Source: Candidatus Woesearchaeota archaeon (GTDB taxonomy: Archaea > Nanobdellota > Nanobdellia > SCGC-AAA011-G17 > GW2011-AR18). From it: DNA of 49,921 nt. The translations under genes and the position numbers were made by a program. Location of the stretch: positions 1 to 49,921 of the forward strand of contig JAGVZM010000020.1 in the NCBI GenBank assembly GCA_018302545.1, read 5' to 3'. Each line of letters opens with the position of its first letter. Position 1 is the stretch's first letter. The notes beneath the pieces were generated by a model that was not told the origin of the DNA, did not search any database, and saw only the letters and a list, made by a program, of their open reading frames with translations. Positions 38,980-40,228 of the stretch are shown here, one piece after another.

Positions 38980-39092
38980 TGCGGGAGACAGGATTCGAAC
39001 CTGCGAAGACCTAAGTCACCAGGGCCTAAACTTAGCCACCCTCTAAAAATATTAAAGAGTTCTGGCCCATTTGTCCGCTCTGGCACCCCCGC
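38980..39092 (-). tRNA. tRNA-Leu (anticodon UAG) with intron
   Basis: Read on the minus strand: acceptor GCGGGGG/CTCCCGC, TG, D-arm CCA...TGG, G26, anticodon stem CCAG+G / CCTGG, loop TTTAGGC with anticodon TAG, long variable arm GAC-TTAG-GTC typical of Leu, T-arm GCAGG TTCGAAT CCTGT, and discriminator A. The cloverleaf only closes if a 30-nt intron (39032-39061) is removed between positions 30 and 31, inside the anticodon stem. CCA is not encoded. The 5' half overlaps the frameshifted LAGLIDADG reading frame. Confidence 0.88.
39032..39061 (-). other. tRNA-Leu intron with BHB motif, position 30/31
   Basis: The 30-nt intron runs AACTC to GCTAA on the minus strand. The splice motif is well formed: intron helix ACTCTTT/AGAGGGT (7 pairs with G-U), 3-nt bulge AG|A, central 4-bp helix GGCC/GGCT, and 3-nt bulge AA|G, each cut after the second bulge base. 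The outer exon helix is weak (relaxed form). Archaeal introns most often lie at 37/38, so this site is non-canonical. Confidence 0.8.
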
Positions 39093-39744
39093 AAAAGAAG
39101 ATCAATATACTCCTTTTTAAAAGATAGGCCATAGTATTCCTTTTTATATTTTTGGTATAGCCATTTATCTCTAAAAGTGTCTATTCCACAAGATCCAAAT
39201 AAATTTATTAATCCAACCCACAGATTTCTGCTAGCAGTAGATAATCCAAAACCCTTTTTCTCCTACCTCCTTCTGTAGCCATGATGCCCAATAAAAAAGC
39301 AGATTTTATCTTTTTATTTGAATTGAAAATTAGTTTTGGAACCACAACAATATCACTCTTTTTACCAAAAGGAATTTCAAAAACCTTATTTAGCAGAAAA
39401 TAAATTGCTTTACTATCAATGTAGATGGCATATGTTTGTTTTCTCCCATTTCTTTTTATCTGACGTACATTAAAACTTCTATCAAATAATCCTAAACAGA
39501 TTTTATTTATATAATTAAGCAGAACCAAATTAGACAGTTCGATGGAAATTTGATATTTACCTTTTTTAAGATGCCCATCTCCTATTATACAAGCTACGAA
39601 GAAACTTAACTTTTGCTCTAAATCTAAGGGAATCTTAGTTTCTTTGCTTGGACCAAATTTAGCTTTTACAATAATAGAAGATCTCTCAATATTAATTTTC
39701 TTTAAACTTTCTTGAGATTTTAATACTTCCTTTTTAATATTCAT
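39032..39744 (-). pseudogene. Frameshifted LAGLIDADG homing endonuclease
   Basis: From the ATG at 39744 the first 155 or so codons encode a LAGLIDADG nuclease: first motif LSFFVACIIGDGHLKK, IELSNLVLLNYINKI, RNGRKQTYAIYIDS, VFEIPFGKKSDIVVVPKLIF and second motif SAFLLGIMATEGGRRKR. There the frame goes to a premature stop at 39208, but after a one-base shift in the AAAAAGGG run (about 39252-39259) it continues GFGLSTASRNLWVGLINLFG, IDTFRDKWLYQKYKKEYYGL and SFKKEYIDLL, the usual C-terminus. This second frame has no stop until TAA at 39032-39034, the last three bases of the tRNA intron. It is a decayed gene or a sequencing indel. Confidence 0.8.
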
Positions 39745-39800: not shown

Positions 39801-40037
39801 TCAAGAATATTCAACTTTATCAATATCTAAAAGCATGGTTTCTATTAATCTATCTGATTTAACTTTATCTCCAGAAATCTCTGCTTTAATAGCTTGTTCA
39901 GCTTTAACATAATCCATCTCTATTTCATTAAACAATTCCATTACAAATTCTAAACCTTTCCTACGCAAAGTAACATTATCAGAATTTAAAATCATACTCA
40001 AAACAGCCTTTGCTTCAACTAATACTACATTATTCAT
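39801..40037 (-). CDS. Hypothetical protein in Lsm-L37e operon
   Basis: This 78-residue, wholly helical, acidic protein includes VVLVEAKAVLSMILNSDNVT, GLEFVMELFNEIEMDYVKAE and DRLIETMLLDIDKVEYS. No family was recognised. Its start overlaps the L37e stop by 4 bp, so it is translated with the Lsm-L37e pair and may have a role linked to RNA or ribosomes; this is inferred from position only. Confidence 0.5.
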   Translation of the reverse strand: MNNVVLVEAKAVLSMILNSDNVTLRRKGLEFVMELFNEIEMDYVKAEQAIKAEISGDKVKSDRLIETMLLDIDKVEYS

Positions 40038-40228
40038 TTTCTTCTTATTGTCTTACCTCCTCTTTTTGTCTGCCAATTATATCTTCTTAATTTTGCAGTT
40101 TCTCCATATCCGCATGAAGCACATTTTTTATTTCTAACACTATAACTCCTTTTTCCGCATCTTCTACATCTTTGTACTAAGTTACTCTTTCCACTCTTCT
40201 TACCCATAGATGCAGTTCCTTTTGTCAT
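40034..40228 (-). CDS. rpl37e: Ribosomal protein L37e
   Basis: The 64-residue zinc-finger protein of the large subunit begins MTKGTASMGKKSGKS, the standard archaeal/eukaryotic L37e start. It has four zinc ligands in CRRCGKRSY and CASCGYG (two CxxC pairs), then the basic tail AKLRRYNWQTKRGGKTIRRK. The length and start match the family. It lies 13 nt downstream of the Lsm gene, an arrangement seen in many archaea. Confidence 0.95.
   Translation of the reverse strand: MTKGTASMGKKSGKSNLVQRCRRCGKRSYSVRNKKCASCGYGETAKLRRYNWQTKRGGKTIRRK

Follow-up and report, generated by a model that had tools for sequence, protein, structure and literature searches.

A free-standing LAGLIDADG endonuclease gene flush with a single-copy tRNA-Leu(UAG) gene in a woesearchaeal genome, and its relatives at archaeal tRNA genes

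The stretch of DNA analysed here, called the window below, comprises 49,921 nt of contig JAGVZM010000020.1 from a Candidatus Woesearchaeota archaeon. At the locus under study, a ribosomal protein gene, a short open reading frame, a homing endonuclease (HE) gene and a tRNA gene lie on the same strand, and the last two share bases. The features are as follows.

40034..40228, minus strand: gene for ribosomal protein L37e, whose position upstream of tRNA-Leu(UAG) is conserved throughout the order; our anchor for the empty-site comparison
39801..40037, minus strand: 78-aa ORF between L37e and the HE gene, no Pfam match
39208..39744, minus strand: LAGLIDADG HE gene, 5' part, 178 aa before the frameshift stop
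39252..39259, minus strand: AAAAAGGG run, where the frame breaks relative to homologue L031
39032..39251, minus strand: HE frame, 3' part after the break (frame translation), running without a stop across the tRNA 5' exon and the intron up to a TAA
38980..39092, minus strand: tRNA-Leu(UAG) gene, anticodon 39028-39026, single copy in the assembly
39062..39092, minus strand: first 31 bases of the tRNA gene, its 5' exon up to position 30, which double as coding sequence for the C-terminal tail of the HE
39032..39061, minus strand: bulge-helix-bulge (BHB) intron of 30 nt at the noncanonical position 30/31 (cloverleaf solver and fold)
39032..39034, minus strand: TAA stop of the HE frame, the final three intron bases

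The ORF 39744..39208 carries one LAGLIDADG motif, FFVACIIGDGHL, and the beginning of another, FLLGIMATEGG; within the AAAAAGGG run at 39259-39252, a one-base frameshift interrupts the HE frame. Past the break, the neighbouring frame at once encodes homologous protein, with 54% identity to L031 over 39307-39065. The break may represent a real pseudogene or an error of the MAG or its assembly. According to the first-pass annotation, correction of one base leaves the LAGLIDADG frame open through the tRNA 5' exon and the intron up to a TAA (39034-39032) made of the last intron bases, and this description proved right, coordinates included. The protein of the window, a broken copy, reaches 15.4 bits, which is below the Pfam cut-off; its intact relatives pass that cut-off (PF14528, PF03161), and the subfamily profile matches I-DmoI (about 1e-10) and archaeal intein endonucleases. 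A PF00961 search of the window's own genome gave no match. As the ORF begins upstream of the tRNA and lies mostly there, and the intron is just 30 nt long, the gene is free-standing and sits outside the intron, as had been stated earlier; an intron-encoded archaeal HE was ruled out on the same grounds. The genome of the window harbors a second free-standing HE (L080 / L244, G000:C14:64205-64573), which ends 27 nt before tRNA-Ile(GAU).

The tRNA gene (39092..38980) was missed by the default run of ARAGORN and by the Rfam gathering score, its CM score being 12.8 bits. A purpose-written cloverleaf solver was used for it, which splices out exactly 30 nt (39061-39032) and reads the anticodon as UAG, hence the assignment to Leu. 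BLAST of the assembly revealed no second tRNA-Leu(UAG) copy. In the precursor fold, a 4-bp helix (GGCC/GGCU) is flanked by the 3-nt bulges AGA and AAG at the intron borders (AG^A, AA^G), which is the helix and bulge arrangement of archaeal BHB introns, and the cut points of the fold agree with those of the solver. Because both methods place the intron at 39061-39032, the TAA corresponds exactly to its last three bases. Folding the anticodon arm by itself puts the exon stem in competition with the BHB. The tRNA-Leu 5' exon, as read off the sequence, contains zero stops in any frame, and thus an HE frame that stays open through it is by itself weak evidence of a connection. One splicing endonuclease gene is present in this genome. 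About 8 of its 13 detected tRNAs have introns, judged by length, and several apparently have at least two (L062-L084).

A homologue of the HE found on a Pacearchaeota contig (L031) is 62% identical to that of the window and has no frameshift; its reading frame continues into tRNA-Leu(UAG) in the same phase and terminates at the anticodon, TAG. The first-pass annotation counted homologues that stop before the tRNA or adjoin unrelated loci as a refutation, and it was not refuted: the close homologues lie on the same tRNA-Leu(UAG) and run into it. We assembled 164 distinct free-standing LAGLIDADG ORFs from searches of relatives, the order and the class, and compared them using a tRNA detector that gives 0.1 matches per 50 kb in shuffled sequence. 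A tRNA was present at the HE 3' end of 97/164 ORFs, a fraction (59%) that is biased upward for the clades from which the query profiles were built, because the sample was drawn in part with profiles of tRNA-adjacent members; similarity alone led to clades such as Arg(UCG), Ile(GAU) and Gly. These 97 cases comprise 42 ORFs ending inside a same-strand tRNA, 37 with a same-strand tRNA within 150 nt and 18 with a tRNA on the opposite strand. Ten of the 164 have a tRNA solely on the HE 5' side, and 57 have none detected, some of the latter lying at protein genes (EF-2, pheT, RFC large subunit). When one common search window was applied, a tRNA was found at 96/161 HE ORFs, at 32/228 other ORFs of the same loci and at 0/9 intein-type ORFs. 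The association between HE and tRNA, as seen at the L031 junction and in 97 of the 164 relatives, exceeds chance, and a tie of the nuclease to its tRNA gene is strongly supported. In the open-access literature we found no published description of a LAGLIDADG family lying flush at tRNA genes in archaea. At six loci (L048, L147, L165, L170, L176, L179) the HE gene runs antisense into the tRNA 3' end. The start codon of pheT is overlapped by the 3' end of a LAGLIDADG gene at L030, and that of an apparent RFC large subunit gene at L113/L058.

Of the overlapping HE frames, nine use a stop at 8-10, mostly TAG, and end at tRNA base 10; six use a TAR at 13-15 and end at base 15; in Leu the stops lie deeper in the tRNA, often within the intron. 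Protein-coding and tRNA sequence thus share bases on one strand, and it is the tRNA that provides the stop codon. Among the Leu clades, the nuclease domain finishes no more than a few codons from the tRNA edge; we infer flush insertion of an HE gene that lacked its own stop from the outset. A conserved, tRNA-coded protein tail was considered and rejected, since the phase of the HE/tRNA junction differs between clades; the read-through tail is rather a by-product, as no frame of a tRNA-Leu 5' exon contains a stop.

The site itself can be followed across the order, in which tRNA-Leu(UAG) lies downstream of L37e. Among about 58 genomes with this orthologous site, both HE-plus and HE-minus alleles are present. 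Within a single genus (g16), the site is empty in G017 and G034 (L306, L297), where the tRNA begins 10 nt past the L37e stop, an intact HE occupies it in G045 and G099 (L089, L132), and G098 (L295) retains a decayed remnant with its middle deleted. Another decayed remnant is found in G066 (L158). Between the window and L031, dN is 0.32 and dS 1.71; the corresponding values for L085/L086 are 0.20 and 1.20, and dN/dS is about 0.17-0.34 in further HE pairs. Judging by these substitution rates, intact copies are under purifying selection, and such selection, together with the empty, occupied and decayed states, fits the life cycle of a homing endonuclease. Close relatives thereby offer a natural set of sites in all three states for homing studies in DPANN archaea. 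L242 has two HE ORFs in tandem, with 15 nt of the tRNA 5' end repeated upstream, and insertion may have happened there more than once.

The nuclease tree comprises 97 domains, of which 67 have a confident tRNA label (18 states); along it the label changes 20 times, with a possible minimum of 17 and with 42-50 changes in 200 shuffles. The HEs of Leu(UAG), Tyr, Arg(UCG), Ile(GAU) and Thr(GGU) form clades; those of Leu(UAG) fall into two, the smaller of which contains the window, L031, L104, L108 and L130. The fidelity of each clade to a single type of tRNA suggests that tRNA genes are the landing sites, and this tracking of isoacceptors may in part reflect vertical descent at one fixed locus and not target specificity.

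As to expression, it had been suggested that one transcript could carry both the nuclease and the tRNA. This is possible in the window, where the two are on the same strand, but it is not a rule, as the tRNA is on the opposite strand in 18/97 cases. TATA-like boxes lie ahead of the HE start in 51% of cases (control 12%) and, within the HE coding sequence, ahead of the tRNA in 36% (control 17%). An HE that uses only the tRNA's own promoter is not supported, given that just 10 nt separate L37e from the tRNA in the empty allele and that TATA-like boxes occur before HE starts.

We propose that the window contains a free-standing HE gene inserted flush at the 5' end of the single-copy tRNA-Leu(UAG), from a large family of this archaeal class, with isoacceptor-specific clades that probably cleave their tRNA genes; on sequence comparison, we put the probability of this reading at about 0.74. 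Each clade would use the gene of one tRNA isoacceptor as its insertion site and, presumably, as its cleavage target. A tRNA allele lacking the HE would be cut, then repaired from an HE-bearing copy, and would thus gain the nuclease gene. The 3' side of this gene would be bounded by the tRNA edge, often with no stop of its own, so that translation would read into the tRNA and end at a TAG at 8-10, a TAR at 13-15, the anticodon or an intron stop. HE and tRNA may be cotranscribed. The gene would pass through gain, decay and loss, and the frameshifted copy of the window may be at the stage of decay. A nearby mini-intron may mask the target and be transferred along with the gene, which is only suggested by the data.

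Several known systems resemble this arrangement in part. Archaeal BHB introns with internal LAGLIDADG genes, of the I-DmoI type, involve the same nuclease superfamily (by profile match) and the same splicing motif, but there the nuclease lies inside the intron, whereas here it is outside, flush with the tRNA end. LAGLIDADG genes also occur in group I introns of archaeal rRNA, Pacearchaeota included, and all 39 cases described are in rRNA genes (PMC6125680). The SegB nuclease of phage T4 is free-standing, is inserted between tRNA genes, targets a tRNA intergenic region and drives its inheritance (PMC2988022, citing Brok-Volchanskaya 2008). As far as that account of SegB goes, the likeness is a free-standing nuclease gene adjoining tRNA genes; SegB differs in its GIY-YIG fold, the family of the window being LAGLIDADG, and in its setting, a tRNA cluster of a T-even phage genome, and neither an overlap of nuclease frame and tRNA nor isoacceptor-tracking clades are reported there. 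In collaborative, or trans, homing, a free-standing nuclease is paired with a nuclease-less intron, as mobE is with the nrdB intron (PMC2988022). Here, too, a free-standing nuclease stands beside an intron with no working nuclease of its own; however, mobE and nrdB concern group I introns and phage protein genes, and our case BHB mini-introns and archaeal tRNA, with the intron not always present. A parallel in layout is tRNA-Thr(GGU) of Caldiarchaeum, where an 813-bp ORF directly upstream accompanies a newly gained noncanonical intron and an integrase element was proposed (Sugahara 2012, PMC3293823). In both loci an ORF immediately precedes a tRNA of the same strand and a noncanonical tRNA intron has been gained, but the Caldiarchaeum one was read as a pNOB8-type integrase element and is flanked by a repeat of a 5' tRNA fragment. 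To judge by layout, the two may be the same phenomenon.

tRNA genes are classic integration sites, and one may thus ask whether site-specific recombination into the tRNA, as by SSV or pNOB8 elements, could have produced these loci, an interpretation already given to the similar Caldiarchaeum locus (PMC3293823). We regard this as very improbable: the protein is a LAGLIDADG nuclease, and the upstream repeat of the tRNA 5' end that an integrase would leave is absent in nearly all loci, the exceptions being one 15-nt and one 13-nt match, so that the combination of integrase and tRNA fragment repeat seen in SSV and pNOB8 elements is not found here. Scarcely more credible, indeed somewhat less so, is chance or an accident of annotation, the frame of a decayed ORF extending into a tRNA by coincidence. 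The stop-free tRNA-Leu 5' exons and the frameshift in the window would allow for it, but intact homologues have the same junction and the pattern recurs class-wide. It is also conceivable that tRNA genes are merely tolerated spots and that the HEs cut elsewhere, their adjacency being hitch-hiking. Free-standing nucleases of T4 can cut far from their own gene (PMC2988022), and some HEs of the present set lie at protein genes; against this, the HE clades track the isoacceptor and the 3' ends are flush in both tRNA orientations, and we thus find harmless landing unlikely in comparison with insertion at a cleaved tRNA gene.

A stronger form of our main reading is collaborative homing, in which the HE would cut the intronless tRNA-Leu at the intron site and a mini BHB intron that destroys this site would be carried along by co-conversion. 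The first-pass annotation had connected the endonuclease with the spread of the tRNA intron; the connection with the tRNA is strong, and the part on intron spread finds weak support. In tRNA-Leu(UAG), where positions 30/31 and 37/38 are common intron sites, any intron is present in 8/9 genes with an HE vs 26/49 without one (five HE-less rows were called by eye, as the script was unable to parse them). In EF-2, a P-loop mini-intron is present in 3/3 genes with an HE just upstream (G060, G047, G099; an insertion of roughly 30-36 nt) vs 12 of 40 HE-less ones, 28 being without it; this count leaves out inteins, and the G060 insertion was read by eye. The combined one-sided p for co-occurrence of HE and intron, which ignores kinship, is about 0.012. 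L087, the sole intronless HE-bearing tRNA-Leu at the syntenic site, has an intact HE and a paired D-stem change absent from its HE-free congeners L312/L314; this change alters the DNA and keeps the fold, and it could, as one case, be another escape from cutting. The joint gain of an ORF and an intron at tRNA-Thr provides a precedent (PMC3293823). Yet the 30/31 intron taken separately is found in only 6/9 genes with an HE vs 18/49 without (p 0.14 two-sided), many introns occur with no HE, and HE-flush tRNAs free of introns include L087 (Leu), several of Thr, Ile and Arg, and also Gly. The intron was therefore rejected as a fixed partner of the HE. We hold collaborative homing to be possible, with the odds against it, and spread of the intron by the HE to be plausible but unproven. 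A further elaboration, which we consider doubtful, would be a two-part selfish element made of an isoacceptor-specific HE fused at the tRNA edge and a target-masking BHB mini-intron, which would spread noncanonical tRNA and EF-2 introns; expression of the HE would be throttled in it, because RNase P would cut the HE message before its stop codon. The origin of many oddly placed archaeal tRNA introns is an open question, for which an HE family bound to isoacceptors would be a concrete, testable agent.

The EF-2 loci deserve mention in their own right. To our knowledge, pre-mRNA BHB introns are rare in archaea; in many genomes of this order, BHB-like mini-introns of roughly 30-36 nt occur in the EF-2 P-loop (AHID^HGK region; L327, L347, L348, L350, L353-L358, L360, L361, L011, L162 and L004/L323), where other relatives carry inteins. 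The EF-2 of the window's genome (G000:C9:60487-60825) lies in a 1217-aa frame and probably has an intein at the P-loop. The intron-bearing EF-2 genes of L004, L011 and L162 are each closely preceded by the 3' end of a free-standing LAGLIDADG gene, which at L011 overlaps the EF-2 start. The insertion at L011 folds as a textbook BHB (z -4.3), and those at L162 and L004 fold weakly.
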